Positions 8,856 to 49,794 of a stretch of DNA of 52,411 nucleotides are shown here, one piece after another. The notes below the pieces were generated by a model, which worked only from the letters and a program-made list of their open reading frames with translations, had not been told where the DNA came from and searched no databases. The DNA lies in contig DTZW01000473.1 of the NCBI GenBank assembly GCA_012961165.1, positions 1 to 52,411 of the forward strand, in the 5' to 3' direction. Each line of letters opens with the position of its first letter. Within the stretch, counting starts at the first letter, position 1. The position numbers were made by a program, and so were the translations under genes. The stretch is from Gammaproteobacteria bacterium. Its GTDB lineage: Bacteria > Pseudomonadota > Gammaproteobacteria > Pseudomonadales > Azotimanducaceae.

Positions 8856-9611
8856 ATGGTGGATAAGATGGTCAATAAATCTGAAAGGACAGGAAAATTA
8901 ACAATGGAAGATCCGGCTACCATGAAAATGAAAGCTCTGGAGGAGCGATCGGGCGTAAGCAGGGAATCCATCCGTTTCTATATCCGGGAAGGAATTTTGC
9001 CTGAGCCTGATAGGCCAAAACCCAATATTGCGTATTACTCTGATCTGCATGTCAAACGGCTGCTGGCGATTCGATACATGAGGCAGGAACGAGAAATGTC
9101 GCTTGCCAGGATCAAGTCAATTTTGGTGAACGCAGAATTTGACTCAGTTGCCAGACCGACGACTCTGAAGGGATTAAAACAACTGCTACCGGTACTGGTC
9201 GATGGTACCGCTCCTGCTGAAGATAAGAGCATTGCTGATATAGCGATAGAAAGCGGAATTTCAGAAACTGAGATCAACGACATTGCCGATTGCGGAATCA
9301 TTGAGATTCGCGAACAAGATGGTGATCAATATGTCGGTTTCAGAGATGTCATTATTTTGAAGCAGTGGGGTCTGATGAAGGCTACCGGATTCACTCAGGA
9401 CAAGGGTTACGATCTTGATTTACTAAGGCTTTATCAGCAAACCATGATGGATTTGGCAAAATTCGAGATTGCTCAGTTTTTTGCGGGTTTCGGCTCCGAT
9501 GCTATTTCTGATGAAGTTGTAGGTAAGGCTGCGAAGGGTATTGATTGTGTAAATACAATTATTCACCAGATACATACGAAGCTTCTTTTAAAGGGGATCA
9601 AAAGAGACTAG
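8856..9611 (+). CDS. MerR-family transcriptional regulator
   Basis: A 251-residue regulator. A MerR winged helix-turn-helix lies at about residues 25-95 (LEERSGVSRESIRFYIREGILPEP and AYYSDLHVKRLLAIRYMRQ). A C-terminal part of about 150 residues holds a second helical segment (IADIAIESGISETEINDIADCGII) and no Cys-rich metal-binding motif, so it probably senses an organic ligand or acyl-CoA. It diverges from the crotonase-SDR pair and lies just before badI-aliB-badH in the same direction. It may therefore control both sides, and the 19-base-spacer promoter at 8721-8751 is its best candidate target. A later in-frame ATG at 8904 is a possible alternative start. Confidence 0.85.
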   Translation: MVDKMVNKSERTGKLTMEDPATMKMKALEERSGVSRESIRFYIREGILPEPDRPKPNIAYYSDLHVKRLLAIRYMRQEREMSLARIKSILVNAEFDSVARPTTLKGLKQLLPVLVDGTAPAEDKSIADIAIESGISETEINDIADCGIIEIREQDGDQYVGFRDVIILKQWGLMKATGFTQDKGYDLDLLRLYQQTMMDLAKFEIAQFFAGFGSDAISDEVVGKAAKGIDCVNTIIHQIHTKLLLKGIKRD

Positions 9612-9750
9612 CAGATCAGCTTATAACAAACTGAGATTGAGTCGCTATTAGCGCTGTTTATCGCAGCTCCCGTGGAGGATGAGGCGAATGAGAATGTGGT
9701 CTGGTAGTTTTGCTCCGAATAACAATTAACCGAGAGGGTAAAGAGGAAAA

Positions 9751-10533
9751 ATGAAATACGAAGATATTCTGTATGAAGAACGAGATGGCGCAGCCTGGAT
9801 AACCATTAACCGCCCTGATGTTTACAACGCGTTTCGCGGTACAACCTGCGAAGAATTGATCCATGCGTTTAACAAAGCGGGTTACGACACCAATATTGGC
9901 GTTATTGTTCTGACCGGAGCTGGTGAAAAGGCTTTTTGCACAGGTGGTGATCAGTCATCTCATGATGGTAACTATGATGGTCGCGGGCTGATCGGGTTGC
10001 CGGTTGAAGATCTTCATTCAGTGATCCGCGATGTTCCGAAGCCGGTGATCGCTCGAGTGCAGGGGTATGCGATTGGCGGTGGAAATGTCTTCGCGACGAT
10101 CTGCGATATGACGATTTGCTCCGAAAGCGCTATTTTTGGCCAGGTTGGGCCGAAGATGGGCTCCGTTGACCCTGGCTACGGTACAGCTTATCTGGCGCGG
10201 GTTGTCGGCGAGAAAAAAGCCCGGGAAATTTGGTACATGTGTCGCCGTTATTCTGGACGGGAGGCCGAACAGATGGGTCTGGCAAATATATGTGTGCCAG
10301 ATGACCAACTCGATGCTGAAGTGGATAAGTGGTGTGCGGAAATTATGGAGAAGAGCCCGACAGCGCTGATGATTGCCAAGCGAAGTTTCAATGCCGATAG
10401 CGAGCACATCAGGGGTATTGCCAATCAGGGTCTTGTGTCTCTCAAAATGTACTACGACTCCGATGAGTCAAGAGAGGGGGTGAGTGCGTTGATGGAAAAA
10501 AGAAAACCCGATTTTCGAAAATTCATTAATTAA
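9751..10533 (+). CDS. badI: 2-ketocyclohexanecarboxyl-CoA hydrolase (BadI-like)
   Basis: A 260-residue crotonase-family protein, the same length as BadI of Rhodopseudomonas palustris. BadI opens the alicyclic ring of 2-oxocyclohexanecarboxyl-CoA hydrolytically to give pimelyl-CoA. The resemblance, from memory, is close along the whole length: NAFRGTTCEELI, CTGGDQSSHDGNYDGRG, ARVQGYAIGGGN, FGQVGPKMGSVDPGYGTAYL and ARVVGEKKAREIWYMCRRY. MenB (naphthoate synthase) is the nearest alternative, but the lack of other menaquinone genes and the aliB and badH neighbours argue for BadI. A GAGG site precedes the ATG. It leads a plus-strand set with aliB 22 bases downstream. A second, broken BadI-like gene lies at 38591-39343. 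Confidence 0.86.
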   Translation: MKYEDILYEERDGAAWITINRPDVYNAFRGTTCEELIHAFNKAGYDTNIGVIVLTGAGEKAFCTGGDQSSHDGNYDGRGLIGLPVEDLHSVIRDVPKPVIARVQGYAIGGGNVFATICDMTICSESAIFGQVGPKMGSVDPGYGTAYLARVVGEKKAREIWYMCRRYSGREAEQMGLANICVPDDQLDAEVDKWCAEIMEKSPTALMIAKRSFNADSEHIRGIANQGLVSLKMYYDSDESREGVSALMEKRKPDFRKFIN

Positions 10534-10555
10534 ATTAATCCCGGAGGAGGTGGCT

Positions 10556-11707
10556 ATGGACTTTTCCTTTACCCCTGAACAAAAGTTGTTCAAAGAGACA
10601 GTAACCCGATTTGGCGCTGATAAGTTGGCTCCGTATTATCAGCAACGAGAGCAAGATGGCATCATTGGCCGAGATTTGTGCCTTGAGATGGGTGAGTTGG
10701 GTTTAATTGGGTGCGAGTTACCTGAAAAATATGGAGGCATGGGGTTGGACTCTGTGACGGCAGGGATCGTTGTCGAAGGGGTGGCGAATGCAGATTTTAA
10801 TGTTTCCTATATTCAGTTAATCGGGTCGCTAATGGGGTCATTGATCGCGCAGCATGCTCAGGAAGAAATCGCACACCGCGTGGTAAGTGACATTTGTGCG
10901 GGGAGGAGCATCGTTGCCTTGGGATTAACCGAACCTCGCGGAGGTTCCGACGCTGCCCATCTCATTTTGAAAGGGACCAGGTCCGGCGATCACTTTGTTT
11001 TAAATGGCGAAAAGACCTCTATATCTCTGGCTGATCAGGCAGATGAAATTGTAGTTTTTGCTCGCACTGGTGACAGTGATGGTGCAGGTGGCGTCAGTGC
11101 ATTTTTAGTCCCGCTTAATGCGCCAGGGATTAGTACAACAAGATTCGCGGACCTGGGTTCAGGCGCAGTAGGTCGTGGTTCGGTATTCTTCGATGATGTA
11201 GAGGTATCTGCCGCTGCAATGATTGGTCCAGAGAACAAAGGCTTTCGTGTTGTCATGCAAGGCTTCGATTACAGCCGCGCGCTGATTGGGCTTCAGTGCA
11301 TTGCCTGTGCTGAAGCTTCAATTGCGGAAGCGTGGGAATACGTGAAGGAAAGAGAGGCCTTTGGTGGTCCGATTGCACGATTTCAAGGCGTTACCGAGCC
11401 ATTGGCCGAAGCTGAAACGCTGCTCTATGCGGCTAAGTTACTTTGTTATAAAACCCTTTGGTTGAGGGATCAGGGTGAAAATCACACGGCTGAAGCGGCC
11501 ATGTGTAAATGGTGGGCACCCAGGGTAGCGTTTGATGCGATACACAGTGCGCTTTTAACGCATGGACATTACGGCTATAGCAGCGAGTTACCGCATCAGC
11601 AAAGACTACGCGATGTGCTGGGATTGCAGATTGGAGATGGCACTCAGCAAATCCAGAAAATGATCATCTCCAGGGAAAAGATTGGTGCAGTAGCTGTACC
11701 TTATTAA
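10556..11707 (+). CDS. aliB: Cyclohexanecarboxyl-CoA dehydrogenase-like acyl-CoA dehydrogenase (AliB-like)
   Basis: A 383-residue acyl-CoA dehydrogenase next to badI and badH, the position expected for the enzyme that makes cyclohex-1-ene-1-carboxyl-CoA from cyclohexanecarboxyl-CoA. Family segments include LPEKYGGMGLDS, GLTEPRGGSDAAHL and REAFGGPIARFQGVTEPLAEAE. The catalytic loop reads QIGDGTQQIQ, so Asp stands where most family members have Glu. An ATG at 10556 follows the strong GGAGGAGG site; a GTG two codons earlier is less likely. The AliB assignment rests on context plus the general match; another cyclic or branched acyl-CoA is possible. Confidence 0.75.
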   Translation: MDFSFTPEQKLFKETVTRFGADKLAPYYQQREQDGIIGRDLCLEMGELGLIGCELPEKYGGMGLDSVTAGIVVEGVANADFNVSYIQLIGSLMGSLIAQHAQEEIAHRVVSDICAGRSIVALGLTEPRGGSDAAHLILKGTRSGDHFVLNGEKTSISLADQADEIVVFARTGDSDGAGGVSAFLVPLNAPGISTTRFADLGSGAVGRGSVFFDDVEVSAAAMIGPENKGFRVVMQGFDYSRALIGLQCIACAEASIAEAWEYVKEREAFGGPIARFQGVTEPLAEAETLLYAAKLLCYKTLWLRDQGENHTAEAAMCKWWAPRVAFDAIHSALLTHGHYGYSSELPHQQRLRDVLGLQIGDGTQQIQKMIISREKIGAVAVPY

Positions 11708-11854: not shown

Positions 11855-12649
11855 ATGGATCTTGAACTGGGAAATAAATCGGTCATCGTTACGGGTGGGG
11901 CTTCCAATATTGGACGCGCGATTACATTAGCCTTTGCTCGCGAAGGCGCGAATATTACCCTTGCCGATCTCGATGTCGACCAGGGCGAGAAAGTTGCTGC
12001 ACAGGCGATGGAGTTAGGAGCCGCTGCTGTTGAGGTGGTGAAGACAGATGTAACTGACATGACGCAGGTGCAAACCATGGTTAACGTGGCCATAGAAAAA
12101 TTCGGTGGGATTGATGTATTGGTCAATAATGTTGGCTGGGACGATTTGATGTTTTTTATGGATACGACGCCCGACTTTTGGGAAAAGATTATCAAGATTA
12201 ACTTCGTGGGAATGCTCAACTGCACGCATACGGTTCTGGGCCATATGGTAAAAACAGGTGGATCTATTGTTTCTATCAGTTCAGATGCCAGCCGGCAGGG
12301 TGAGCCCCGGGAAGCGGTTTATGGGGGTATGAAAGCGGGAATCAACAGCTTCATGAAGACCATCGCTAAAGAAAATGGACGCTATGGTGTTCGTTGTAAT
12401 GTTGTCTGTCCCGGAGTTACTGTGCCGCAGGATGATGAAGAGGTCGGGGACGGTAGTATGTGGGCAGATCGCAATGCAATGTTTACAGAAGAGCAATTTG
12501 CAAAAATTGCTGCTTCGTTACCGTTAAAAAAGGTGGGCCGACCCCGGGACCTGGCAAATGCTGTACTTTTTATGGCATCGAATGCCGCTGCCGGACATGT
12601 CACAGGACAGGTTCTCAGCGTCAGTGGTGGCTACAGTATGATTGGGTAG
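11855..12649 (+). CDS. badH: 2-hydroxycyclohexanecarboxyl-CoA dehydrogenase-like SDR (BadH-like)
   Basis: A 264-residue classical short-chain dehydrogenase. The cofactor motif TGGASNIG, the NNVG segment, the catalytic Ser in SISSDASRQG and the YGGMK Tyr/Lys pair are all present. The segments NNVGWDDLMFF, SSDASRQGEPREAVYGGMKAG, CNVVCPG and the ending GQVLSVSGGYSMIG parallel BadH of R. palustris, which oxidises 2-hydroxycyclohexanecarboxyl-CoA to the keto substrate of BadI. An AGGAG precedes the ATG. With badI and aliB it covers three of the steps from cyclohexanecarboxyl-CoA to pimelyl-CoA; the hydratase step (BadK) is not in this operon but may be supplied by the gene at 40505-41266. Confidence 0.82.
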   Translation: MDLELGNKSVIVTGGASNIGRAITLAFAREGANITLADLDVDQGEKVAAQAMELGAAAVEVVKTDVTDMTQVQTMVNVAIEKFGGIDVLVNNVGWDDLMFFMDTTPDFWEKIIKINFVGMLNCTHTVLGHMVKTGGSIVSISSDASRQGEPREAVYGGMKAGINSFMKTIAKENGRYGVRCNVVCPGVTVPQDDEEVGDGSMWADRNAMFTEEQFAKIAASLPLKKVGRPRDLANAVLFMASNAAAGHVTGQVLSVSGGYSMIG

Positions 12650-12736: not shown

Positions 12737-13876
12737 GTGCACAAACAAAAACAGATTCAAATAGCCAAACACCTACTCGAGCTTAAGGACGCCAGGACAA
12801 CCGATCTGGCGGGCAACATTTTTCGTCAGAAGAAGTCTGATTATGTTTCGCAGGATGTCGCGCAGCGTGAGAAGGACATACTATTCAGGAACTATCCATT
12901 ACTGATCTGCTTGAGCTGCGAAATTGTTAATCCTGGCGACTATTTCTGTGACGATTTTTCGGGTGTACCGATAATTGTTATCAGAACCAGTGAAGGAGAA
13001 GTCTCTGCGTTTCGAAATATTTGCAGGCACAGGGGTGCCCGGCTCGCATGCGATAAGGGCTCTCATCTCAGGAAATTCAGCTGCCCCTATCACGCTTGGA
13101 GTTATGCTACCGACACCGGTGATCTGATCAGTATACCGTTCAACCAAGGTTTTGACGAAATTGATAAACAGGAATATGGCCTGGTTAAGTTACCCGTTAT
13201 TGAGCAATATGGGATGGTTTTCGTTCAGCCTACCCCAGGGGATGAAATTGAACTTGATGATTATTTAGATGGTTTTGCCGAAGACCTGGCAGGATTTAAC
13301 CTGACTGCGTATCATCATTTTGAAACCCGTGTGTTGGAAGCACCTCTCAACTGGAAGCTAGTGGTAGATACCTTCATGGAGACTTACCATCTCAGCACTC
13401 TTCACGGAAATACTGTATCAGCCTACTTACATAATAATCTTTGCCACTTCGATGCACTCGGTCCGCATTTGCGTATGACGGGTGCCAGGAAGACAATCGA
13501 TCAACTGCGTGATTCAGCAGAAGAAGATTGGGACCTTCTGGCTCACACAGCGCTAGTCTACGTGTTGTTTCCCAACACTGTTTTTATCATGCAAGGCGAC
13601 CACCTTGAAACCTGGCGTGTATACCCAGGGGTGAATCCCAACGAATCACGTATGTATGTTTCCCTATACACACCTGAACTCTCAACTACTGAATCTACGC
13701 GCAGGCACTGGAATAACAATATGGATCTGCTAATGGCGACAGTTCTGGATGAAGATTTCCCTTTAGCCAGTAACATCCAGAAGGATTTTGCCGTTTGTGA
13801 CAACCTGTTATTATTTGGTCGAAATGAACCTGCTTTGCAACATTTCCACAAAACGTTGGCAGACAGGTTGGCCTGA
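12737..13876 (+). CDS. Rieske non-heme iron oxygenase, large (alpha) subunit
   Basis: A 379-residue ring-hydroxylating-type oxygenase. The Rieske [2Fe-2S] ligands are C96-x-H98 and C116-x2-H119 (NICRHRG and SCPYHAW). The mononuclear iron site shows H218 and H223 in DTFMETYHLSTLHG, with acidic residues in VLDEDFP near the C-terminus for the third ligand. A GTG start follows GGAG. No small subunit, ferredoxin or reductase is encoded nearby, so electrons must come from elsewhere. This is common for single-component-type oxygenases of the demethylase, carnitine or steroid groups. It comes 87 bases after badH and may act on a ring-substituted acid; the substrate is unknown. Confidence 0.87.
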   Translation: MHKQKQIQIAKHLLELKDARTTDLAGNIFRQKKSDYVSQDVAQREKDILFRNYPLLICLSCEIVNPGDYFCDDFSGVPIIVIRTSEGEVSAFRNICRHRGARLACDKGSHLRKFSCPYHAWSYATDTGDLISIPFNQGFDEIDKQEYGLVKLPVIEQYGMVFVQPTPGDEIELDDYLDGFAEDLAGFNLTAYHHFETRVLEAPLNWKLVVDTFMETYHLSTLHGNTVSAYLHNNLCHFDALGPHLRMTGARKTIDQLRDSAEEDWDLLAHTALVYVLFPNTVFIMQGDHLETWRVYPGVNPNESRMYVSLYTPELSTTESTRRHWNNNMDLLMATVLDEDFPLASNIQKDFAVCDNLLLFGRNEPALQHFHKTLADRLA

Positions 13877-14032: not shown

Positions 14033-14109
14033 TACGGTATTGATTGCGGTACAGGCCAAGATAGGACAACAGCTTAATAGACTGAAACCACAAAGGGGGT
14101 CTCAGACCG

Positions 14110-15489
14110 ATGATTAGAATTAAGCGTTATGATAGAAACTACAGTCGTCGCAAATTCATGCAGCAAGCAGCTGCTGGTTTTGTCACAACAGGCGTACTCA
14201 TGCCGCTCTGGCCGGAGATCGCGCGTTCTGGAGATATATCAGCTGTATATCCGGACGAACTGCTTTCTATTGAGTCCTATACTAATGGACGATTGAGTAA
14301 CGGTGATGTTATCGATGCAGATAATGTAGACCTGGTCAAAGACCTTCTTGATCCAATAAAGTATATCCAGATCTCGCAGATGGGGCGCAAGTTAACCCTG
14401 AAGGCGACGACCACTGACATCATGAAGTTAAACCCCTGGGATTACATTGAGGCGACGCTACGCCACCAAGGGCAGGCCCGATTTGATGACACCGGGAACG
14501 TGGTTACGAAAAAAGGAAACCCCTGGATTGGCGGTAACCCTTTTCCCGATGCGAATTCTGCTGTGGAAATTTTTGCCAATGCAACTCTAAGCTGGGGTAG
14601 GCACGACGTTTCGTTTTATGCGATTAAAGAGGTCGATTTGAACCCGAAGGGGAGCGTCGCCTATAAGTATGACGCCTGCTGGGTAGAATATGCGCCTGTA
14701 GGACGCATTACCCTGGACCCAAAACCCTATGACCCTGGGCGAGAGGACAAGCTACGCTATCAGAGTATTTTCTGGGTCAAGCCTCAAGATATCGGTGGTA
14801 CATCTTTCCTGAATGTCTGGCCGTACGACCAACGTCAGTTTCCTGATCTGTGGGGGTACATTCCTGCGTTCAAGCGGGTGAGGCGCTTCCCGACCAATCA
14901 AAGATTCGAACCCCTGATCGCAGGCAATACACTTTATCTTTCAGATGCCTGGGCCGCGGGCGACCCATTCATGACCTGGGGTAATTTTAAAATCGTCGGT
15001 CGCGGGCCATATCTGGCGGCGGTTTCCGGTAACTGGAATGGTCAAAATTCTAACTGGGAACACACCACGCATGGCGGAAAGAAGGATCAAACATTTTGGG
15101 ATACAGAGGTAGAGTTGGTACCGGAAGTCATTGTGGTTGAAGCCGAGCCCATAAAATTTCCCCGGGCACCGGTGAGCAGAAAACGAGTATGGTTTGATGC
15201 ACGAACATTGTCCCCCATAGGGATGGTGACATTTGATCGACGCGGGCAGGTATTCAAATCTTTCGATGGGGCCTATTCAACCTATGAAGATGGAACAAAC
15301 AAGTTTATGGATGGTGAACATCCATACTGGTCGTGGACTCGCGTTCATGCTTTTGATGTACAGACCAATCGCATGACACGGCTGGAACAGGTAAAAGAAG
15401 TTAGTGGCGGCTATAAAACTGAGGTCAATAACCCCGACCATTACAATCAGTATCTGACTTTGTCTGCAATAAGAAGATTAGGGCATTAG
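14110..15489 (+). CDS. Tat-exported DUF1329 protein (copy 1)
   Basis: A 459-residue DUF1329 protein. The N-terminus has a twin-arginine signal (SRRKFM at 12-17, then a hydrophobic stretch), so it should be folded in the cytoplasm before export to the periplasm. Many DUF1329 proteins I know of use a Sec signal. The family is thought to share the LolA/LolB-like fold that shields hydrophobic molecules, and it often accompanies DUF1302 and MMPL genes. A paralogue is encoded at 21881-23266; both share the VYPDE segment and DNVDLVKDLLDPIKY or its equivalent. It is 11 bases upstream of an MddA-like gene and has a dyad in its upstream region. Binding of a hydrophobic substrate or intermediate is an inference. 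Confidence 0.85.
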   Translation: MIRIKRYDRNYSRRKFMQQAAAGFVTTGVLMPLWPEIARSGDISAVYPDELLSIESYTNGRLSNGDVIDADNVDLVKDLLDPIKYIQISQMGRKLTLKATTTDIMKLNPWDYIEATLRHQGQARFDDTGNVVTKKGNPWIGGNPFPDANSAVEIFANATLSWGRHDVSFYAIKEVDLNPKGSVAYKYDACWVEYAPVGRITLDPKPYDPGREDKLRYQSIFWVKPQDIGGTSFLNVWPYDQRQFPDLWGYIPAFKRVRRFPTNQRFEPLIAGNTLYLSDAWAAGDPFMTWGNFKIVGRGPYLAAVSGNWNGQNSNWEHTTHGGKKDQTFWDTEVELVPEVIVVEAEPIKFPRAPVSRKRVWFDARTLSPIGMVTFDRRGQVFKSFDGAYSTYEDGTNKFMDGEHPYWSWTRVHAFDVQTNRMTRLEQVKEVSGGYKTEVNNPDHYNQYLTLSAIRRLGH

Positions 15490-15500: not shown

Positions 15501-16223
15501 TTGAGAGTCATATCGCTATTGTACGGGGTAGTCTCTTATATCTCGTTTCTGGGAGTGTTCTGTTACTTTATCGCCTTCGATGCAGGTATATTTGTCCCAA
15601 AATCGCTTAACTCCGCTGCTTCTACAGGTGTCGGGGTTGCACTGGCGGTAAATTGTGGACTGATGATGCTATTTGGCGTCCAGCATAGCGTGATGGCGCG
15701 AAGCGGATTTAAGGCATCCATAGAGAAGCTTATTCCCCATCACCTGGAGAGGAGCACTTACGTGCTCGCGACCAACATTGTCCTCGTATTTTTCATGCTT
15801 TGGTGGCAACCCATTGATGGCAACGTATGGTCTGTGGAAAACCCTATCGCCCAAAAGCTTATGTGGGGCATATTTTCTGCTGGATGGGTTCTGGTTTTGA
15901 TTTCGACTTTTCTAACCGATCATTTTGATCTATTTGGTTTAAGACAAGTCTGGCTGAATTTTCTTGAACGCACCTACACCGAAGTACGGTTCACGGAACG
16001 GTTTATCTATCATTGGATACGTCATCCTATGATGCTGGGTCTGCTAATTGCATTTTGGGTCGTGCCTGTGATGACTATGGGACACCTTCTTTTTTCAGCG
16101 GGCATGTCGCTTTATATTTTTGTTGGGATCTATCTTGAAGAAAAAAGCCTGCTCAATTCGATCGGTGACCACTATGCGGTCTACCAAAAAAAGACAGCAA
16201 GGGTCATTCCTGGCATATATTAG
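15501..16223 (+). CDS. mddA: MddA/NnrU-type integral membrane methyltransferase
   Basis: A 240-residue membrane protein with about six hydrophobic segments, related to methanethiol S-methyltransferase MddA and to isoprenylcysteine carboxyl methyltransferases. The conserved C-terminal half is clear: FGLRQVWLNF, YHWIRHPMMLGLLIAFWVVP and a late GIYLEEKSLLNSIGDHYAVYQ. The RHP motif and late Glu are typical of the SAM-binding region. MddA makes dimethyl sulfide from methanethiol, but related proteins may methylate other thiols, and the operon with DUF1329 suggests a different local role. The TTG start has AGGAGA eight bases upstream, overlapping the end of the DUF1329 gene. Confidence 0.75.
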   Translation: MRVISLLYGVVSYISFLGVFCYFIAFDAGIFVPKSLNSAASTGVGVALAVNCGLMMLFGVQHSVMARSGFKASIEKLIPHHLERSTYVLATNIVLVFFMLWWQPIDGNVWSVENPIAQKLMWGIFSAGWVLVLISTFLTDHFDLFGLRQVWLNFLERTYTEVRFTERFIYHWIRHPMMLGLLIAFWVVPVMTMGHLLFSAGMSLYIFVGIYLEEKSLLNSIGDHYAVYQKKTARVIPGIY

Positions 16224-18039: not shown

Positions 18040-18118
18040 GGCTTTTCCTACTATTTTCGTTACTGGCTTTAACGATCGTGGCAAGAACAAAAGCCACATG
18101 ATGATTGTTCAACAGTAG

Positions 18119-31370: not shown

Positions 31371-31502
31371 TGGGCAGGTGAGCTGATTCCTGTCTTCTAA
31401 CTTTCAAGGTTACATATTAAGTAGAATCTCTTCGCTTTGTGGGGAATATCAGACTACCTGAAGCTCATGTGAGTGTTTATCTCTAGTTCTAGAGGAAGTG
31501 TT

Positions 31503-33520: not shown

Positions 33521-33551
33521 ATTTCTGTCGCGTTATGTAGAATCAGGTCGC

Positions 33552-34148: not shown

Positions 34149-34151
34149 TCA

Positions 34152-36657: not shown

Positions 36658-36735
36658 AATAGCCATTAACCATTTTATTTTGATGCTCCTGGGGGCTACC
36701 CGGGAACCGAAACATTGTTTACTCAAGGCAAACTG

Positions 36736-37638: not shown

Positions 37639-37692
37639 AAAGTATCGTATAAAGAAGTAAACCAATGACTAAAAGGAAAAGGAGACAAGACG

Positions 37693-41266: not shown

Positions 41267-41345
41267 AATTAAATCCTCATCAACATGCCCGACATTATAT
41301 CTCAACAGATATACCTAAGAAAACGTCGAAAGGTTTGTTGTTTTG

Positions 41346-42014: not shown

Positions 42015-42031
42015 TAACCTGATTACAATAC

Positions 42032-42442
42032 GTGAAAATCGATTCTCAACGGAAGAAATTTGTAAGGAGAATAAGCCTTACCCCACTGGCTGACCTGGTT
42101 TTTATTCTGCTTGTTTTCTTTATTCTTGAAACCAGTTTCTTACGGTACCGAGAAATAAGTCTTAATCCGGTAACATCGGAGAGCGCCGGTGACAGCGCAG
42201 GGAATCTTCTGTCGATTGAGTTGTTTGCGCAAGGTAGCCTGTGGGTTCAGGGAGAGGTTGTTAACCTGAATAATTTCAACCGGTATCTTGATGACAAGCA
42301 CTTTAATGAGAGTATGGCAGTGAGTATAGCCCTGCAAGAGAAAGTTACTTTGCAATTACTGGTCGACGTCATGGATCAGCTGAAGTCTCATGGTTTGGTA
42401 AGAATACAAATTTCGTCCTTGATCGATGAGGATGCTCATTAG
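42032..42442 (+). CDS. ExbD/TolR-family subunit with the channel Asp
   Basis: A 136-residue protein with one N-terminal helix and a periplasmic domain. D21 in TPLADLVFILLVFFI is the conserved proton-path residue of ExbD and TolR. It starts with GTG 17 bases after the ExbB gene. The paralogue encoded next lacks this Asp, so this copy probably carries the proton-coupling function. Partner: the VWA protein encoded two genes later (inference). Confidence 0.85.
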   Translation: MKIDSQRKKFVRRISLTPLADLVFILLVFFILETSFLRYREISLNPVTSESAGDSAGNLLSIELFAQGSLWVQGEVVNLNNFNRYLDDKHFNESMAVSIALQEKVTLQLLVDVMDQLKSHGLVRIQISSLIDEDAH

Positions 42443-42466
42443 ATTAGATCGCGCGGATGTCTGTTA

Positions 42467-42883
42467 ATGTTCAATTTTGGTGAAAATGATAAACCGGTGG
42501 TACGCCTTGAAGGCAATATGATTCCAGTTGTCAGTATGACTTTTCTGTTGTTGTTGTTCTTCATTGTCGCAGGGAGTTTATCGAACGATCTGAGCCAGGA
42601 TATTCATCCGCCGCGCTCGATCAGTGAAGAGCAAATGCAGGTAGATGATGTTGAGCTGATATTGACCCTGGACGGAATCATTATTTGGGAAAATAAGAAA
42701 ACATCAATTTCTTCGTGGGCGGCAGGGTTTCGCGCCGATGGTTTAACAATCCCTGCCAGAGTGCGGTTGCGGGCCGATAGTGCGACTTCTGCAACGCTTT
42801 TTATGCCAATACTTGAAGACTTGAAGAATGTGAATGTTGATGAGGTTGTGCTGGTTACGATTGACAGTGATGACCTGTTGTAA
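42467..42883 (+). CDS. ExbD-like subunit lacking the channel Asp
   Basis: A 138-residue second ExbD-type protein. Its helix IPVVSMTFLLLLFFI (19-33) aligns without gaps with the helix of the first copy, but residue 23 is Ser where the first copy has Asp 21. The rest looks like a normal periplasmic ExbD domain (the VELILTLDGIIIW segment). Loss of the proton-binding residue in only one of two tandem copies suggests a heterodimer with one active arm. No recognisable Shine-Dalgarno sequence precedes the ATG, so translation may depend on coupling to the upstream gene. Confidence 0.8.
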   Translation: MFNFGENDKPVVRLEGNMIPVVSMTFLLLLFFIVAGSLSNDLSQDIHPPRSISEEQMQVDDVELILTLDGIIIWENKKTSISSWAAGFRADGLTIPARVRLRADSATSATLFMPILEDLKNVNVDEVVLVTIDSDDLL

Positions 42884-42895
42884 CACGGACCTAAA

Positions 42896-43999
42896 GTGAT
42901 TTTTCGTCAAAACAAGTTGAGGTCAATAATAATCTGGTGCAGCCTGTTAACGGTTTCGATTGTTATCCATTTTATCTTGTCCTGGTATGCCTCTCCGGCA
43001 ATTCTGCGCCCCGATACTTTGGTCTCGCAGGATGAAATCGAAACCCTGTTACAACTAGTAGAGAAGCCAGAACGGGAGTCGCTGCTATTTGAAGAAAGCA
43101 TTGATTTTGAACCACCCCCGGTGCTTGTCCCTACATCAGCAGTGGCACCGCCTCCCCCGAATGTAAACCTGGCGATGCAAGCTGCAGCGGGTGGGAACTC
43201 GCCTGGAAGAATACTTGTGCCCGTTCTAGCCGATGTACCCGTAACGGCGGGGAAAGGTGCTGCTGGTTTCGGCAGTGGCACGGGATTGGGATCGAGCAAT
43301 TCTGCTAACCAATTCGCAGCGTACGTCGAGAGTCTTCGCGAAACTGGTCTGGATGTGGTCTTTGTGGTCGATACGACTGGCTCCATGGACTGGGTTCTCT
43401 CAGAAGTTAACACAAGAATTGTGGATATAGTCGATACCGTGAGAATGCTGGTTCCGGTGGCAAGGTTTGGTGTGGTCGCCTATCGAGACCAGGGTGAACC
43501 GGAATATGTCACCAGGTTGCAAACGCTCACTTTTAGTCTCGGCAAATTGTCCACTTTCCTTTCGATGCTTACGGCCCGAGGAGGTGGTAGTTACCAGGAG
43601 GCTGTGTATGAAGGGGTTCTACTAGCCGTTGAAAAAGGCGGTTGGCGACTCGGTGCGAAGAAAGTAATCGTTGTTATTGGCGACGGCCCACCACACAAAA
43701 ATTCGTTCGCCCGACTGCTGGCAGTTAGCCGGAAATTCGCACAGGATCATGGCCAGATATCGGTTCTTGACGTAGGTTCTGATGCAAATCCTGCGGTCAT
43801 AGAAGCCAGGCTCGGCCGAACCGTTAATCGAGCGCTTTACACTGAAAAACCGATGCTGGACTATCAGCTACTTGCCGAGGCAGGAGGTGGAGTTGCGTCA
43901 ACCCTCGATGGTGATGTTGAAATAACCAGGCAATTAGTTTCGCTGATCATGGGAGGCCAGTTCTCCCAGGAAATGGCGCTACTGATGGAGGGTCTATAG
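42896..43999 (+). CDS. TonB-like-positioned VWA-domain protein
   Basis: A 367-residue protein with an N-terminal membrane helix (IIIWCSLLTVSIVIHFILSW), a Pro-rich stretch (72-90: EPPPVLVPTSAVAPPPP), a Gly/Ala-rich linker (100-135) and a von Willebrand factor A domain from about 150 to the end. The metal site motif is DTTGS (D159, T161, S163), followed by the later segment VIVVIGDGPPHKN. The membrane helix plus Pro-rich neck is how TonB and TolA begin, and it stands where those proteins would be encoded after ExbB-ExbD. It therefore may be an ExbBD-driven effector whose head is a VWA domain rather than a TonB domain. GTG start. Confidence 0.82.
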   Translation: MIFRQNKLRSIIIWCSLLTVSIVIHFILSWYASPAILRPDTLVSQDEIETLLQLVEKPERESLLFEESIDFEPPPVLVPTSAVAPPPPNVNLAMQAAAGGNSPGRILVPVLADVPVTAGKGAAGFGSGTGLGSSNSANQFAAYVESLRETGLDVVFVVDTTGSMDWVLSEVNTRIVDIVDTVRMLVPVARFGVVAYRDQGEPEYVTRLQTLTFSLGKLSTFLSMLTARGGGSYQEAVYEGVLLAVEKGGWRLGAKKVIVVIGDGPPHKNSFARLLAVSRKFAQDHGQISVLDVGSDANPAVIEARLGRTVNRALYTEKPMLDYQLLAEAGGGVASTLDGDVEITRQLVSLIMGGQFSQEMALLMEGL

Positions 44000-44001
44000 T
44001 A

Positions 44002-46224
44002 GTGCGATACATTTTCGGAATTTTATTGCTGCAGGCCATCAGTATGCAGGCCTTGTGCGATGAAACTGTACAGACCGGAATCGAATCTCTGCAGCAGTAT
44101 GCAGCAAGAGATATCGGTGACCTGAGTGTCGATGATTTCGTACAGATTGCCGACTATTTTGGGGACATGGTGGTGCAAACAAGGGAGCTTGAAGACAGCG
44201 TTGCTGTTTTGTTTCAGTTGCTGGATTCTGCCGAAGACTTTCGTCGTCTGTGCCGTAGTAAAATTCGTGCGCTAGAGCGGGCCACAATGGATGATGAAAC
44301 CCGGCTTGAAAAATTATACCGCTCGGATCTTTGGCACGATATTAACTATTCGTTGTCAGCCTTTGGTTACTGGGAATCGTGGGTTCTATTAGGTATCGCT
44401 GGAAATAAATCGGGCAATGATGACCAGGCTGGTTGGCTGAACCGGGCTGAGAGTGGTTTTCAGTCGTCGTCCGTGCACATTTTATATCCTGGTGTCGTTT
44501 ATGGAAGCTGGCTTGGGATGGGCTATGTTGCGCGTAAGCGAGGTGACGAAGAATTGGCCAGTCAGCGTTTCGAGCGACTCGTGCAGGCGCTGGTTAATGA
44601 TCCGTCGAATCCAGCCAGAGAGGTCGCTGAAACAGAGTTGTCATTGATGGCAATTCGACGTGGCGAACGGGAAATAGATGAAACAGGGCAGGCGCCGCCG
44701 CTGACAAGATTAAATTCCGTCATATACATAGAAGAGGCGTTTATGTTGCTGCAGCAGCAGCGAGAAACCGGAACCGGTGGCATTGCCGCAGCGACAAGGC
44801 TCAAACAGCTGATAGCCGGTGGCTACCTTGATGACAGCCTGGTTACCAGAATTCTCTCCTATCTCGGAGAAATTGTGGGTCATGATCTGGGGTTGTTCTC
44901 GCTGTGTGTCGATGCCGAGTACGCATATGGTTATGAGCGTTATAACACCACTGTGCTCAAGTATCGGGAATTTGAAGAGAAAGGTGGACCGCACAAACTG
45001 ATTTCCGTGCCGATATTGCAATATCACTACACGGTGGCGTTGCTGAAAATTGGTCAGTTTCGTGCAGCTCAGGAAGAATTGGAAAAGCTGGCCAACAAAA
45101 GTCAAATGCCTGACCAGGTAGTGGCAGCGCTGCCTGGGCTTTCTCTGCGGGTAGCGCAGGCTTTGTATGATCAGCGGGATGATGTACCAAATCGTGCGCG
45201 TTTGCTTGATGCAGCGACAAATCTTATTGACCTGAACCCTGGTGACCCTGCAACGAGCATTGCCCATCTGCTTTTAAGCAGACTGACGCTCGATCCTGTT
45301 CGCGCACGGCATCACCTTGACCAGGCTAGATTGGATTCCAAGCTGAAAAAATCTATAGCGTTATCCCAGGTCAATAAGGCCATTGCTGGCTTTAATCTTT
45401 CTCTGACAGCAAGAGATGTCGCTGCGCAAAGGCAGTATGCCCAAGAAACATTGCAAAACCTGGATGAGCTCTCTCGTCAGATTCGAACTGAACAATGGGC
45501 CCGCGCTGTGTCTATTCAGATGCAGACAGTGCTCGGGAAGGATTTACTCATAGTACTGGCTGAGATTGAAGAATTGTATCTGGAACAGGACCTTGATCCG
45601 CCCGTGCAACTGCAACCAGATGTTCTACGATTGCTAATGTGGTCGAAACTCCGGCTACTTGATAAATTGGACCGGAAGCAATTGTTGCTTTTTATTGAAC
45701 AAATTTCAGTGCCGGGCGTCGAAGGGTTTGTGCAACGCCTGATATATCAATTTTTACTTGAAAAAGAAGAGCTTGGTCAATTGTTGTTACTTCCAGAGAT
45801 GCTGGAAGCATTCTATCCTGCTCTTGCCGGAAAAACCCAGGACCAGCGTCAACTTCGTTTGTTGGAAATTCGAGTCAGGGCTGCGAGCGATCAACCTGAG
45901 AAGGCTTTCCTGCTGGCTAAGAAAATGACCCAGGAGTTTGCGGGTTCTGGTGATGCATGGATAGCATATGCGTCTTCTGCCGAGGCCGTGGGTGAGCTAC
46001 TAACAGCTGAACGGGCTTGGGGCAAGATAGAGGATTCTGTGCCCATTGGGGCACCGCGCTGGCGGAGCGCGGTTTTTCGCAGGATCATTCTGCTCGCTGT
46101 ACTCGGGGATAGAAATACAGAATTGTGTGATCTAGTGCACACCGCCCAACAGTATCGCCATCTGGTCACCGCTCAGGAACGCAGCGACCTGGAAAATCGA
46201 GCTACACAGCACCATTGCCTATGA
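44002..46224 (+). CDS. Exported TPR-like helical-repeat protein
   Basis: A 740-residue protein with a signal peptide (MRYIFGILLLQAISMQALC), followed by a largely alpha-helical sequence with TPR-like pairs, for example ARLLDAATNLIDLNPGDPATSIAHLLLSR and AEEELEKL-type segments. It starts two bases after the VWA stop with GTG. It is probably a periplasmic scaffold that binds the VWA head or a substrate protein. No enzymatic motif is visible. It ends 16 bases from the convergent PQQ dehydrogenase gene, with no room for a strong terminator. Confidence 0.75.
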   Translation: MRYIFGILLLQAISMQALCDETVQTGIESLQQYAARDIGDLSVDDFVQIADYFGDMVVQTRELEDSVAVLFQLLDSAEDFRRLCRSKIRALERATMDDETRLEKLYRSDLWHDINYSLSAFGYWESWVLLGIAGNKSGNDDQAGWLNRAESGFQSSSVHILYPGVVYGSWLGMGYVARKRGDEELASQRFERLVQALVNDPSNPAREVAETELSLMAIRRGEREIDETGQAPPLTRLNSVIYIEEAFMLLQQQRETGTGGIAAATRLKQLIAGGYLDDSLVTRILSYLGEIVGHDLGLFSLCVDAEYAYGYERYNTTVLKYREFEEKGGPHKLISVPILQYHYTVALLKIGQFRAAQEELEKLANKSQMPDQVVAALPGLSLRVAQALYDQRDDVPNRARLLDAATNLIDLNPGDPATSIAHLLLSRLTLDPVRARHHLDQARLDSKLKKSIALSQVNKAIAGFNLSLTARDVAAQRQYAQETLQNLDELSRQIRTEQWARAVSIQMQTVLGKDLLIVLAEIEELYLEQDLDPPVQLQPDVLRLLMWSKLRLLDKLDRKQLLLFIEQISVPGVEGFVQRLIYQFLLEKEELGQLLLLPEMLEAFYPALAGKTQDQRQLRLLEIRVRAASDQPEKAFLLAKKMTQEFAGSGDAWIAYASSAEAVGELLTAERAWGKIEDSVPIGAPRWRSAVFRRIILLAVLGDRNTELCDLVHTAQQYRHLVTAQERSDLENRATQHHCL

Positions 46225-46240
46225 AGCTCTTGTTCGTGGC

Positions 46241-48361
46241 TCACTCGGCTGTTGCGACCCGCGCTCTCTCAATAACGTATTGACGAATATCTTCAACCTT
46301 TTCCGGTGTGAGTACTGAGGAAAAACCGGGCATACCTGAAGCTGAAAGCGCACCATTGAGGACTATCTCGTTCCAGGCTTCTGGAACATCGCGACTTGCA
46401 GCAGCTCTCAAGTCAGGAAGGAGCCCCGCCTTAGCACCGTCGGCATGGCACATAAAGCACCGCTGGTGAAATTGCTGGCGCCCGTCGGCGATTTGCTCAG
46501 CGCTCGCACTTGAAGCCTTAGGGGCTGGAATAACCAGTGCTGCCTGCACTACACCCGGTAACGATTCATCACCGTTTAATTTAAAAGTTAGAACGCGGCT
46601 TACGGGGGGACGTTTTTCGACAACCAGCCCGTAGATTGTGCCCCAGCCGACGGTTACAGAAACGTATTGCTCTCCATCAATAGCATAACTGACAGGTCCT
46701 GCCACTACCCCAGTTTGTGATTGCATACTCCAAAGCTGGTCTCCATTGTCTGCACGATAAGCGACAAACTCCCCTTTGATATTTCCCTGGAATATGAGGT
46801 TCCCCGCCGTAGACAGAATGCCGCCATTCCATGGGCCCGGATGCTCAATGGCAAAAACACGCTTGTTCGTTACGGGATCCCAAGCCAGCAGTCGGCCTTT
46901 GATCAGTTCATCGACTTGTTTTGCAGCCGCAGGGTCATCTGGAGTTGCCGATAAAGAGAAATCGATGGCCAGATTCCACTCACCTGGGGAGTATTTGTAA
47001 TTTATGTCTTTACCATAGATAAAAGGTAGTTCTTGAGCGGACACATAAGCCAGGCCGGTTTGTGGGCTATAGGACATTGGATGCCAATTGTGGCCGCCAA
47101 AAGGACCAGGAAACTGCAGAAAGGGCTGTTCGGGATCCGGGTATCGGGCACCTTCGGCTTCGATGGGCCGTCCGGACGCAATATCCACCCCAGTGGACCA
47201 GGTGACTGGAACGTAGTTGTCCGCTGAAATTAGTTTTCCTGTTTTCCTGTCCAGAACGTAGAAATAGCCATTTTTTGGCGCCTGCATGAGAACCTTACGT
47301 TGGCTACCCTCTATTTCAATGTCAGCAAGAATGATCGATTGGGTTGCTGTGAAGTCCCAGGTATCACCAGGTGTCGTCTGATAGTGCCATACGTATTTAC
47401 CGGTATCGGGATTGAGCGCTACAATTGACGAGAGAAACAGATTGTCACCGCCACCTGGACTGCGTTTATCACGATCCCAGGGTGAACCGTTGCCGACCCC
47501 TATATACAACAAGTTAAGCTCTGGATCATACGCCATGGCATCCCAGGGTGTGCCACCACCACCCGCTAGCCACCATTGTCCGTTCCAGGTTTCTGCGGCC
47601 ATTTCCTGCGTATCATCCTCAAAACCATCGGCAGGGTTACCCGGCACAGTGTAAAAGCGCCATAGTTGCTCGCCGTTCACTGCATCATAAGCGGTTACAT
47701 ATCCTCGTACGCCATATTCAGCACCACCATTTCCGATTATCACTTTACCATTGACCACTCTCGGTGCACCGGTAATTGTGTACGGTTTGGATCGGTCTAT
47801 GGTGCTAACAGACCAGGATTCTTCACCTGTTGCCGCGTCTATTGCTATTAAGCGGCCATCAATAGTTCCCACATAGACCATGTTCCCCCAGGCAGCGACC
47901 CCGCGGTTAACAACATCACAGCACGCGTAGCGGCCCCAGGCCCTTGGAACTTCAGGATCATACACCCAGAGCTCTTCCCCTGACTTGGCGTCAATCGCAT
48001 ACACGATGGACCAGCCTGAGGTGGTATACATGCGGCCATCGATAACTATTGAAGTTGCCTCCATACCGCGTCTTATAGGGATGTCGTAATACCAGGCGAG
48101 CCCGAGTTTGGAAACATTGTCATCATTAATTTGATCGAGAGGACTGAATCTTTGTTCTGAATAAGTGCGTCCGTGCGAGAGCCAGTTTTGTGGCTCATCA
48201 TCGGCATTGATAATACGTTCCGCAGTAATGAGCGACGGATTGGTTGACACCTCGCTTGTCATCGAGTCGTCTTCATCCACCGGTGTTTCATTTTCGGGCG
48301 AGCATCCGATGAGGCATAACAAAACTAGAAATTTAGGGAGATTGTTTAAGATGGACATCAT
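46241..48361 (-). CDS. PQQ-dependent quinohemoprotein alcohol dehydrogenase, lipoprotein
   Basis: A 706-residue periplasmic enzyme that oxidises alcohols to aldehydes with PQQ and passes electrons to a fused cytochrome c. A lipobox (LIGC, Cys 20) predicts lipid anchoring. The eight-bladed propeller carries the vicinal Cys pair in RYACCDVVNRG, W-rich repeats and the PGDTWDFT segment with the catalytic Asp. The extra Asp two residues later that marks lanthanide enzymes is absent (Thr), so a calcium enzyme is likely. The heme site is CFMCH (635-639) and M677 may be the axial ligand. ATG 48361 follows GAGG. It is 29 bases downstream of the aldehyde dehydrogenase, so the two form an alcohol-to-acid pair. 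Confidence 0.92.
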   Translation of the reverse strand: MMSILNNLPKFLVLLCLIGCSPENETPVDEDDSMTSEVSTNPSLITAERIINADDEPQNWLSHGRTYSEQRFSPLDQINDDNVSKLGLAWYYDIPIRRGMEATSIVIDGRMYTTSGWSIVYAIDAKSGEELWVYDPEVPRAWGRYACCDVVNRGVAAWGNMVYVGTIDGRLIAIDAATGEESWSVSTIDRSKPYTITGAPRVVNGKVIIGNGGAEYGVRGYVTAYDAVNGEQLWRFYTVPGNPADGFEDDTQEMAAETWNGQWWLAGGGGTPWDAMAYDPELNLLYIGVGNGSPWDRDKRSPGGGDNLFLSSIVALNPDTGKYVWHYQTTPGDTWDFTATQSIILADIEIEGSQRKVLMQAPKNGYFYVLDRKTGKLISADNYVPVTWSTGVDIASGRPIEAEGARYPDPEQPFLQFPGPFGGHNWHPMSYSPQTGLAYVSAQELPFIYGKDINYKYSPGEWNLAIDFSLSATPDDPAAAKQVDELIKGRLLAWDPVTNKRVFAIEHPGPWNGGILSTAGNLIFQGNIKGEFVAYRADNGDQLWSMQSQTGVVAGPVSYAIDGEQYVSVTVGWGTIYGLVVEKRPPVSRVLTFKLNGDESLPGVVQAALVIPAPKASSASAEQIADGRQQFHQRCFMCHADGAKAGLLPDLRAAASRDVPEAWNEIVLNGALSASGMPGFSSVLTPEKVEDIRQYVIERARVATAE

Positions 48362-48390
48362 GGGTTTCCTCAAAGGATTTATCCTTATGG

Positions 48391-49794
48391 CTATTTGGCC
48401 TGGTTGATTATCTGAACCTGGGTGAATTCGTGCAGACCTTCCTGAGCGAACTCGACACCTATACCGGATTGCTTTGCACCACCAAATGGGACATTGGGGC
48501 CAAAGTCCAGGTGGGTATTGATCCAGACTGTTCCGCTTTCAACCTGCATGGCAATTTCTTTGGCTCTATCCAGGTCGTCAGACCAGACAGAAGCACCCAA
48601 GCCAAACTCTAATCCATTAGCACTGCCAACAATATCGTCATTATCTGCATACTTGATAACGGGCATAATCGGGCCGAACTGTTCTTCATCAACAATTTCG
48701 TCCCCATCTTTTACGTCACGGACAATGGTTGGGTTTATAAAATACCCTTTTGTGTCCGGAACATCGCCGCCTGCAATCACAGTTCCCGCAGTTTTTGCGT
48801 TCTCCAAAAATCCTTTTACCTTTTCGTATTGCATCTTGTTATTAAGGGGGCCTATTTCAGTACCCTGGTTTGAGCCATCACCAACTACCGCCGCATTTGC
48901 CAGAGTGGCTAGCTCATCACACATTTCGTCATAGATGCTCTCGTGCACATAAGTTCTCTTCAGTGCCAAACACACCTGTCCGCAGTTCATAAATGCGGCG
49001 CCGTATAATTTCGCGGCAGTTTCCTTAACATTAACGTCGGGAAGCACGATCCCTGGATCGTTACCCCCTAACTCCAGTGTTAAACGCTTCAGGGTATTTG
49101 ACGCGCTAGCCATAACTTTCTTGCCGGTGGCCGAGGAACCTGTAAATGAAACTTTCGCGATATTGGGGTGGCTGGTTAAATAGTCGCCCAGTTCATTTTC
49201 GTCATTGACTGTATTTACCACTCCCGCCGGTAAAACACTCGCGCAGATTTCAGCGAACTTGGCAGTTGAAATGGGTGTAGTAGGAGATGCCTTAATCACA
49301 ACTGCATTCCCCGCCAGAATTGCAAGGGGTGCCTTAAAAGCAATGATCAATAATGGAAAGTTCCATGGGATTATGCATGCAACAACACCTAGTGGTTTTC
49401 GATGTAGTTCGACTCGTTTAGATTCGTCATCCTGCAAGACCTCCATTGGTAGATCCATGGTGGCAAAATGTCGGATAAAGGCTTCGGTATACATCACCTC
49501 GGCTGCGGCTTCTGTGGATGGCTTTCCCTGTTCCTGGGTTAGCGTACGGGCAATATCATCGGCGTTTTCGTTGAGCCCGTCTGCGATTTTGCTTAATGCT
49601 GCCTGGCGCTCGGAAATTGAAGTTTTTGCCCAAAGTAATTGCGCCGCTTTAGCGGAGTCAATGGCCGCATCTACCTGGGCCTTATCTGATTTTGCGATGG
49701 TTGCAAATACTTCTTCAGTTGCCGGATTGATGACGTCCATTTCTGAGGCGCCATCCACTGCATTTCCATCGATCCATAATTTAAAGTCTGACAT
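48391..49794 (-). CDS. Aldehyde dehydrogenase, NAD(P)-dependent
   Basis: A 467-residue aldehyde dehydrogenase. N143 (PWNF), E241 (LELGGNDP) and C275 (NCGQVCLALKR) are the catalytic residues. I placed the start at 49794 because GGAG lies right before this ATG and the product then begins MSDFKLWIDG, as family members do; the open frame runs 33 residues further. It is cotranscribed with the PQQ dehydrogenase and would oxidise its aldehyde product, or the 6-oxohexanoate type intermediate from lactone degradation. It belongs to the general ALDH superfamily; the substrate is not defined. Confidence 0.9.
   Translation of the reverse strand: MSDFKLWIDGNAVDGASEMDVINPATEEVFATIAKSDKAQVDAAIDSAKAAQLLWAKTSISERQAALSKIADGLNENADDIARTLTQEQGKPSTEAAAEVMYTEAFIRHFATMDLPMEVLQDDESKRVELHRKPLGVVACIIPWNFPLLIIAFKAPLAILAGNAVVIKASPTTPISTAKFAEICASVLPAGVVNTVNDENELGDYLTSHPNIAKVSFTGSSATGKKVMASASNTLKRLTLELGGNDPGIVLPDVNVKETAAKLYGAAFMNCGQVCLALKRTYVHESIYDEMCDELATLANAAVVGDGSNQGTEIGPLNNKMQYEKVKGFLENAKTAGTVIAGGDVPDTKGYFINPTIVRDVKDGDEIVDEEQFGPIMPVIKYADNDDIVGSANGLEFGLGASVWSDDLDRAKEIAMQVESGTVWINTHLDFGPNVPFGGAKQSGIGVEFAQEGLHEFTQVQIINQAK

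Follow-up and report, generated by a model that had tools for sequence, protein, structure and literature searches.

Can a copper membrane monooxygenase (CuMMO) open the aerobic breakdown of ring-shaped alkanes? Cycloalkanes make up much of petroleum, and little is known of the enzymes by which their natural breakdown begins. The question is raised by contig DTZW01000473.1 of a gammaproteobacterial metagenome-assembled genome (MAG; 5.34 Mb, 480 contigs, completeness 95.65%), the entire 52,411 bases of which make up the window analysed here, and which carries CuMMO genes together with genes of the kind that process cyclic ketones and cyclohexanecarboxylate. We put the probability at roughly 57% that this island serves the aerobic catabolism of ring alkanes of the cyclohexane type, methylcyclohexane most likely among them, with the CuMMO as the predicted entry enzyme. 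Searches of the window proteins against Pfam, NCBIfam (with its curated cut-offs) and PDB sequences recovered every part named in an initial annotation of this DNA, all between 8856 and 49893: XmoCAB (PF04896, PF02461 and PF04744), a Baeyer-Villiger monooxygenase (BVMO) with a short-chain dehydrogenase/reductase (SDR), the putative counterpart of the CpnA-like enzyme in that annotation, a hydrolase of the hormone-sensitive lipase (HSL) type, a pyrroloquinoline quinone alcohol dehydrogenase (PQQ-ADH), an aldehyde dehydrogenase (ALDH), and homologues of AliA, AliB, BadH and BadI. That annotation had left out an XmoD-like protein, a multicopper oxidase, a cupredoxin-like protein, a set of MMPL, DUF1329, YCF48 and DUF1302 proteins, and a BadI relic. 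Below, G000 is the genome of the window, other G numbers are compared genomes, and L numbers are their loci or contigs.

The CuMMO genes lie in a plus-strand run behind a divergent regulator:

29343 to 30398, minus strand: AraC-type regulator, divergent from xmoC (PF12625, PF12833)
30564 to 31370, plus strand: XmoC, copper monooxygenase subunit C (PF04896)
31473 to 32237, plus strand: XmoA, copper monooxygenase subunit A (PF02461)
32237 to 33520, plus strand: XmoB, copper monooxygenase subunit B (PF04744)
33501 to 34148, plus strand: XmoD-like protein (no Pfam match; homologues follow XmoB elsewhere)
34152 to 35849, plus strand: multicopper oxidase, presumably membrane-anchored (PF07732, PF07731, PF00394)
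35842 to 36657, plus strand: cupredoxin-like protein rich in His and Met (weak PF07731 match, 0.2 bits below cut-off)
36715 to 37638, plus strand: putative serine hydrolase with a GHSDGG motif (no Pfam match)
37693 to 38598, plus strand: HSL-type hydrolase, proposed lactone hydrolase in the ChnC/CpnC role (PF07859)
38594 to 39331, plus strand: BadI/MenB-like relic with in-frame stops (43% to BadI)

From XmoC to the relic (30564 to 39331) no gap exceeds 102 bp and neighbouring genes overlap in four places; the subunits follow the order C-A-B with intergenic gaps of 102 and -1 bp, and we infer that the run is read as one transcript. Flanked by its AraC gene and including the HSL, it forms a unit suited to expression and assay. 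A promoter scan of the window returned 14 sites, below the 17.7 of shuffled sequences, and terminator-like sites number 19, above the 10.6 of shuffles; Rfam and tRNA scans of the window gave no match. The putative serine hydrolase has a weak PDB match to a feruloyl esterase (E 0.043), and 40% homologues adjoin Xmo in L028 and L030. In the relic, one TAA falls within the BadI match and another stop ahead of the first matched residues; before it decayed, the gene may have acted on rings of a different size. BadI paralogues, at 44-50% to BadI, are present in several CuMMO genomes.

All nine copper ligands known from particulate methane monooxygenase are kept, three of three for CuB in XmoB and six of six for CuC and CuD in XmoC; the rows used for comparison, 46 of XmoB and 43 of XmoC, keep them without exception. 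XmoA misses both NCBIfam methane/ammonia monooxygenase cut-offs (233.0 against 290 and 223.3 against 318.15), as does XmoC (239.7 against 319 and 207.5 against 280.6), and XmoB passes the AmoB model (453.2 against 336) and misses the other subunit B model (378.9 against 394.9). For comparison we used 28 CuMMO loci of named genomes found by a pattern scan. Fourteen of these are of Porticoccaceae type (filed as Gammaproteobacteria, 7; Porticoccaceae, 3; Cellvibrionales, 2; Pseudomonadales, 2), and the other 14 come from Polaromonas, Rhodoferax, Hydrogenophaga, Acidovorax, Solimonas, Nevskia and two Pseudomonadales. In the XmoA tree (45 rows) the window groups with the 14 Porticoccaceae-type rows on a long stem with support of 100/100, and in the XmoABC tree (42 rows) with 13 of them at the same support. 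The Porticoccaceae-type rows without the window form one group at 87/76 (XmoA) and 73/37 (XmoABC), in trees whose long branches were flagged by the tree tool. The window enzyme is a deep lone branch, likely sister to the Porticoccaceae-type enzymes; its XmoA is 56-62% identical to theirs and 48-53% to the sister clade of the other 14 loci. In XmoC, Tyr208 stands three residues ahead of the CuD asparagine and occurs in 15 of 15 rows of the clade and in none of 28 others. Ile160, three positions after the CuC histidine, is likewise unique to the clade.

The neighbourhood of these enzymes is partly conserved. An XmoD-like homologue (34-58%) follows XmoB in 13 of the 14 loci of Porticoccaceae type and in the majority of the remaining 14. 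Although many of the 14 end at contig borders, 11 hold a homologue of the multicopper oxidase (60-67%), 10 a cupredoxin-like homologue after it (54-66%), and 10 an MMPL homologue downstream of Xmo (64-67%), near which YCF48 stands in five and DUF1329 in three; L007 has the MMPL gene and no multicopper oxidase. In G058, G066 and G068 the contig with Xmo also carries a DUF1302 homologue (38-42%). In four of the 14 (L006, L007, L010 and L011) a related AraC gene (32-35%) and SDRs of 45-46% identity stand upstream of Xmo. An ORF-filtered version of the neighbourhood comparison overlooked known genes (BadI in G627 and G678), so its absences weigh little. The corresponding set of the window adjoins the BVMO on the minus strand, and an AraC-type regulator gene lies next to it:

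19056 to 20843, minus strand: DUF1302 protein, presumably an outer-membrane barrel (PF06980)
20883 to 21872, minus strand: YCF48-like protein (PF14870)
21881 to 23266, minus strand: DUF1329 protein (PF07044)
23371 to 25839, minus strand: MMPL/HAE3 transporter (PF03176)
26149 to 27192, minus strand: AraC-type regulator (PF12625, PF12833)

The transporter set that adjoins the BVMO here thus accompanies Xmo elsewhere; it would handle the hydrophobic substrate or its products. The window shares with the Porticoccaceae-type loci the XmoCABD-oxidase-cupredoxin order and the MMPL company, and differs from them in its family, in its lone deep branch, in the HSL and BadI relic within the xmo run, and in the presence of BVMO-SDR and ali/bad genes alongside xmo on one contig. 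With the other 14 hydrocarbon CuMMOs it has in common the CuMMO itself, mostly with XmoD, and BadI, which 10 of those 14 genomes carry.

What substrate the CuMMO might serve is suggested first by a ring-ketone gene pair:

16408 to 18099, minus strand: BVMO of the cyclohexanone-monooxygenase type (61.6% to the Thermocrispum enzyme, TmCHMO)
18119 to 18871, minus strand: SDR, proposed cyclic alcohol dehydrogenase in the ChnA/CpnA role (60-67% to gene-set SDRs)

Type I BVMOs bear the fingerprint FxGxxxHxxxWP, present here as FVGEQYHTGAWP. The 61.6% identity to the Thermocrispum cyclohexanone monooxygenase extends over 531 columns, and bit scores are 711-770 for cyclohexanone monooxygenases, about 525-536 for phenylacetone monooxygenases and 501 for steroid monooxygenases; chains with no name beyond 'putative flavin-binding monooxygenase' score as high as 706. 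The BVMO is 68% identical to a gene on plasmid 2 of Polaromonas JS666, which is presumably the cyclohexanone monooxygenase cloned from that strain. Gene sets of the order HSL-BVMO-SDR occur in JS666, Actibacterium, a Pseudomonas and genome G074, and identities to such sets, on four named plasmids and in CuMMO genomes, are 61-68% for the BVMO, 60-67% for the SDR and 46-50% for the HSL. The cloning and screening of a cyclohexanone monooxygenase of JS666 is credited to Alexander 2012 in PMC3915288. A Sulfitobacter plasmid encodes an esterase, a BVMO that bears the annotation cyclohexanone monooxygenase, and a hypothetical protein that shares 60% identity with the SDR of the window, and in G081 HSL and BVMO adjoin, with the SDR on the contig that carries its XmoA. 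An alcohol dehydrogenase lies downstream of the gene set in three of the four named plasmids (JS666, Actibacterium and Pseudomonas), followed in Actibacterium and Pseudomonas by a succinate-semialdehyde dehydrogenase (SSADH)-type ALDH, which in Sulfitobacter stands 3.4 kb upstream of the esterase. These two dehydrogenases presumably take the ChnD and ChnE roles. The BVMO is a cyclohexanol-type module, and of chnABCDE the homologues of A, B and C are present in the window. The ring-hydroxylation-to-lactone route of the initial annotation thus holds as far as orthology to the HSL-cyclohexanone monooxygenase-SDR gene sets carries it, and lacks identified ChnD and ChnE genes. Compared with the chnA-E-type genes of JS666 plasmid 2, the window has the same three homologues in a split arrangement, the HSL with xmo and the BVMO-SDR pair 19 kb away on the other strand, and it holds no close partner of the alcohol and SSADH-type aldehyde dehydrogenases of JS666-type plasmids; no zinc-type alcohol dehydrogenase is among its Pfam-scanned proteins. 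The best NCBIfam matches of the SDR are other SDRs, and it scores below the cut-offs for the 4-hydroxycyclohexanecarboxylate dehydrogenases ChcB1 and ChcB2 (254.8 against 400 and 206.5 against 350). The BVMO, at a threshold of at least 63%, was considered as a CuMMO marker (3/28 against 0/55, Fisher p 0.036) and rejected, because a plasmid search with it found 25 records at 60-80% identity and such genes are widespread on plasmids. The 14 Porticoccaceae-type genomes (G058-G071) hold 5 to 16 BVMO genes each (E 1e-60).

The oxidation of a primary or side-chain alcohol could fall to two further genes:

46241 to 48373, minus strand: PQQ-ADH with a C-terminal cytochrome c (TIGR03075, 661.3 against 480.05; PF13442)
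48391 to 49893, minus strand: ALDH (PF00171)

The former has the make-up of the quinohaemoprotein type, a PQQ propeller with a C-terminal cytochrome c. For the latter, an inner Met start explains the end at 49794 given in the initial annotation, the longer frame running to 49893. These genes can also be read in a system for short n-alkanes, in which the CuMMO would act on C2-C5 alkanes, the SDR would form a methyl ketone, which the BVMO would convert to an acetate ester for the HSL to split, with PQQ-ADH and ALDH burning the primary alcohol and the ali/bad block serving naphthenic acids separately; this would parallel the propane/acetone route of Gordonia TY-5 (AcmA/AcmB). Such a system would account for CuMMO, SDR, BVMO, HSL, PQQ-ADH and ALDH without any ring. 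It also agrees with a PQQ-ADH homologue (46-55%) directly after XmoD in seven of eight Burkholderiales loci (L020 ends before that point). Compared with those loci, the PQQ-ADH of the window is 12 kb off on the opposite strand. Characterised hydrocarbon CuMMO clades take ethane to butane, and action on n-pentane is hypothesised in a Cycloclasticus study, which also names an 'unknown' CuMMO clade (PMC12510462). The BVMO speaks for rings instead: in a comparison covering these types it scores higher on cyclohexanone than on phenylacetone and steroid monooxygenases, and its gene-set kin come with alcohol and aldehyde dehydrogenases of the kind that hydroxy acids would call for. We regard the n-alkane system, the main rival, as less likely than the cycloalkane reading, at perhaps one chance in several.

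A second ring-related branch is formed by the ali/bad block and its neighbours:

7622 to 8440, minus strand: crotonase-family protein, possible ring enoyl-CoA hydratase (NF005595, 386 bits, cut-off 292)
8856 to 9611, plus strand: MerR-type regulator upstream of the ali/bad block (NCBIfam MerR-family matches below cut-offs)
9751 to 10533, plus strand: BadI, 2-ketocyclohexanecarboxyl-CoA hydrolase (TIGR03210, 485.5 bits, passing 467.6)
10550 to 11707, plus strand: AliB-like acyl-CoA dehydrogenase (TIGR03207, 520.9 bits, below 575.35)
11855 to 12649, plus strand: BadH-like SDR (TIGR03206, 216.7 bits, below 431.2)
12737 to 13876, plus strand: Rieske oxygenase alpha subunit (PF00848, PF00355)
14110 to 15489, plus strand: DUF1329 protein (PF07044)
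27426 to 29072, minus strand: AliA-like CoA ligase (TIGR03208, 655.1 bits, below 792.3)

BadI is 73-78% identical to full or nearly full Porticoccaceae copies, and BadH is 64-71% identical to the BadI-adjoining gene there; AliB is at 53-61% to AliB-like genes adjoining BadI elsewhere, and AliA at 47-48% to ligases adjoining AliB/BadI in G074 and G055. The order BadI-AliB-BadH-Rieske is closest to that of G035, of the same family (89, 84, 84 and 62%). The Rieske oxygenase is kept near BadI-AliB-BadH in that genome, at 62-63%. The set AliB-crotonase-BadI-BadH is complete in 11 of 13 BadI loci from CuMMO-bearing Porticoccaceae, the other two being cut by contig ends. Set against the AliA/AliB/BadK/BadH/BadI pathway, the window has a BadI that passes its model, three genes that best match theirs below cut-offs, and a Rieske gene downstream. 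The cyclohexanecarboxyl-CoA route put forward in the initial annotation is supported by BadI and its conserved AliB/BadH company, with the BadK step left unassigned. For two window crotonases (7622 to 8440 and 40505 to 41305) NCBIfam gives generic names only, none of them BadK. The first is a candidate for the missing hydratase, because its homologues stand beside the Xmo operon of G083 (77%, L031) or on the Xmo contig of G058 (76%, L105); a further one, at 68%, is on the Xmo contig of G079 (L168). An MddA-type methanethiol S-methyltransferase lies at 15501 to 16223 on the plus strand (274.5 bits against a cut-off of 270), and a 52% homologue is found about 7 kb from BadI in G074 (L082:17416-18249).

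From the observed gene identities, order, phylogeny and co-occurrence we infer the following reactions and substrates. XmoCAB, aided by XmoD, the multicopper oxidase and the cupredoxin-like protein, would place a hydroxyl on the ring or on a methyl side chain. A ring alcohol would pass to the cyclic ketone by the SDR, to the lactone by the cyclohexanone-monooxygenase-type BVMO and to a hydroxy acid by the HSL. A side-chain alcohol would be oxidised by PQQ-ADH and ALDH to cyclohexanecarboxylate and activated by AliA; AliB, a crotonase and BadH would then lead from the CoA ester to 2-ketocyclohexanecarboxyl-CoA, the ring of which BadI would open to give pimelyl-CoA. More tentatively, and with somewhat less than even odds, XmoCABD may be a dedicated cycloalkane hydroxylase of a lineage outside Porticoccaceae, joined in one gene run with a lactone hydrolase, that feeds both the lactone and the cyclohexanecarboxyl-CoA routes, with residues of the Tyr208 type shaping a ring pocket.

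The co-occurrence of BadI with CuMMOs extends this association beyond the window. BadI at 63% or more is found in 24 of 28 CuMMO genomes and in 5 of 55 CuMMO-free relatives (G017, G019, G020, G035 and G055), with BadI in G062 and G063 counted from partial genes at contig ends. Among 112 genomes of the family of G066, 16 have BadI (E 1e-90), and 13 of the 16 are known CuMMO carriers (Fisher p 1.6e-14, or 2.2e-13 with G062 as a miss, relatives being treated as independent). The CuMMO state of the BadI-positive G627, G678 and G679 and of 96 BadI-negative genomes comes from the pattern scan. These statistics overstate the link between CuMMO and BadI, because kin were treated as independent and CuMMO absence was taken from the pattern scan. 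Thirteen of the 14 Porticoccaceae-type source genomes are among the matches listed for this family and G062 is not; we take the family to be Porticoccaceae because three members carry that name (L006, L009 and L012). The joint presence in the window exceeds background: in a class-wide sample of 369 genomes, CuMMO is present in 11, BadI (E 1e-90) in 12 and both in two (G000 and G466); the remaining CuMMO genomes may be methanotrophs or nitrifiers. Polaromonas AER18D-145 (G079) has XmoCAB and BadI-BadH on one 122-kb contig, Xmo and BadI being 37 kb apart, with the homologue of the 7622 to 8440 crotonase 11 kb further on. The putative entry role that the initial annotation gave to the CuMMO is backed only indirectly, by the HSL within the run, the Porticoccaceae clade and this co-occurrence.

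The following points weigh against the cycloalkane reading. Four of the 28 CuMMO genomes are without a BadI match (G072, G078, G080 and G082), the co-occurrence is uncorrected for relatedness, and in 23 of the 24 genomes with both, most of them fragmented MAGs, BadI and Xmo are on different contigs, which would also suit a short n-alkane system with a separate ali/bad block. In the xmo run, the BadI paralogue adjoining the HSL is broken, and six plus-strand terminator-like sites lie inside the run, all within coding sequence. In the ring-ketone branch, ChnD and ChnE orthologues were not found in the window, its ALDH being only 32-34% identical to the SSADH-type ALDH; the HSL is distant from gene-set HSLs (just 46-50%), with general esterases as best PDB matches; those of the SDR are R-specific alcohol and hydroxysteroid dehydrogenases, the cyclohexanol dehydrogenase entry 4ure scoring lower (148.8 against 204.4 bits); and BVMOs at 63% or more are found in just 3 of the 28 CuMMO genomes. 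In the ring-acid branch, AliA, AliB and BadH are below curated cut-offs, though the models are the best-ranked for each gene; the crotonase that G035 has between BadH and Rieske is missing from the window, where 87 bases separate them; and no window gene is identified as BadK (cyclohex-1-ene-1-carboxyl-CoA hydratase). Finally, contamination of the source MAG is 8.02%.

This last figure bears on another explanation, in which the contig would be a mixture of accessory modules (CuMMO, cyclohexanol, cyclohexanecarboxylate, and a terpenoid- or steroid-like module of Rieske, DUF1329 and MMPL genes) that lateral transfer or binning has brought together and that form no single pathway. The search for this gene set in related genomes, proposed in the initial annotation, found BadI in most CuMMO genomes, as above, and XmoA in only 1 of 206 genomes of the window's own family, which is consistent with such a mixture. 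So are the presence on this contig of luciferase-like monooxygenases and further catabolic genes, and a 740-aa protein with homologues in 0 of 57 relatives (E 1e-20), a result uninformative as a test of contig membership. A mixture would leave unexplained why the HSL is located within the xmo run, why the Porticoccaceae-type loci, too, have MMPL, DUF1329 and YCF48 downstream of Xmo, and why BadI and CuMMO co-occur. Composition fits the bin, with tetranucleotide profiles of 0.836-0.887 for six window pieces and 0.794-0.924 for 18 bin pieces, against a median of 0.723 and a maximum of 0.853 for 22 Porticoccaceae pieces; this agreement cannot decide contig membership, because bins are built with composition and two pieces of G055, from another family, score alike (median 0.878). 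The window thus lies within the range of its own bin. G000, though BadI-positive, does not appear among the matches listed for the G066 family, and the two families therefore differ; for the CuMMO in the window's family, lateral gain and a misplaced contig both fit. We judge the accessory mixture improbable, more so than the n-alkane system, and prefer the cycloalkane unit to both.

The initial annotation had considered a copper entry step for cyclic alkanes to be new. In Ca. Reddybacter, a new pmo clade has reportedly been named as the likely entry enzyme. The open literature that we searched, outside which most subscription papers lie, yielded no paper proposing a CuMMO as cycloalkane entry step. 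Nevertheless, the title of Arrington et al. 2023, as it stands in the reference list of PMC13390413, gives methylated cycloalkanes as the fuel of a Porticoccaceae genus, and with Porticoccaceae so linked to these compounds the novelty fails for the field; the copper-entry idea is probably not new. What the window contributes is a deep branch of its own, an HSL placed within the xmo run and the gathering of the genes on a single contig. With this second lineage, deep-branching and more tightly packed with ring-ketone and ring-acid genes, the proposed connection of CuMMOs with cycloalkanes can be tested by comparison, and the near-complete gene sets for opening six-membered carbon rings beside its CuMMO suggest that copper enzymes of this kind can initiate the degradation of cyclic petroleum compounds.

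The window also carries other genes. ExbB, two ExbD proteins, a VWA protein and the 740-aa protein are encoded at 41343 to 46224 on the plus strand. Two luciferase-like monooxygenases, an acyl-CoA dehydrogenase, a MaoC hydratase, a CitE-like lyase and the crotonase described above form a further catabolic set at 328 to 8440.

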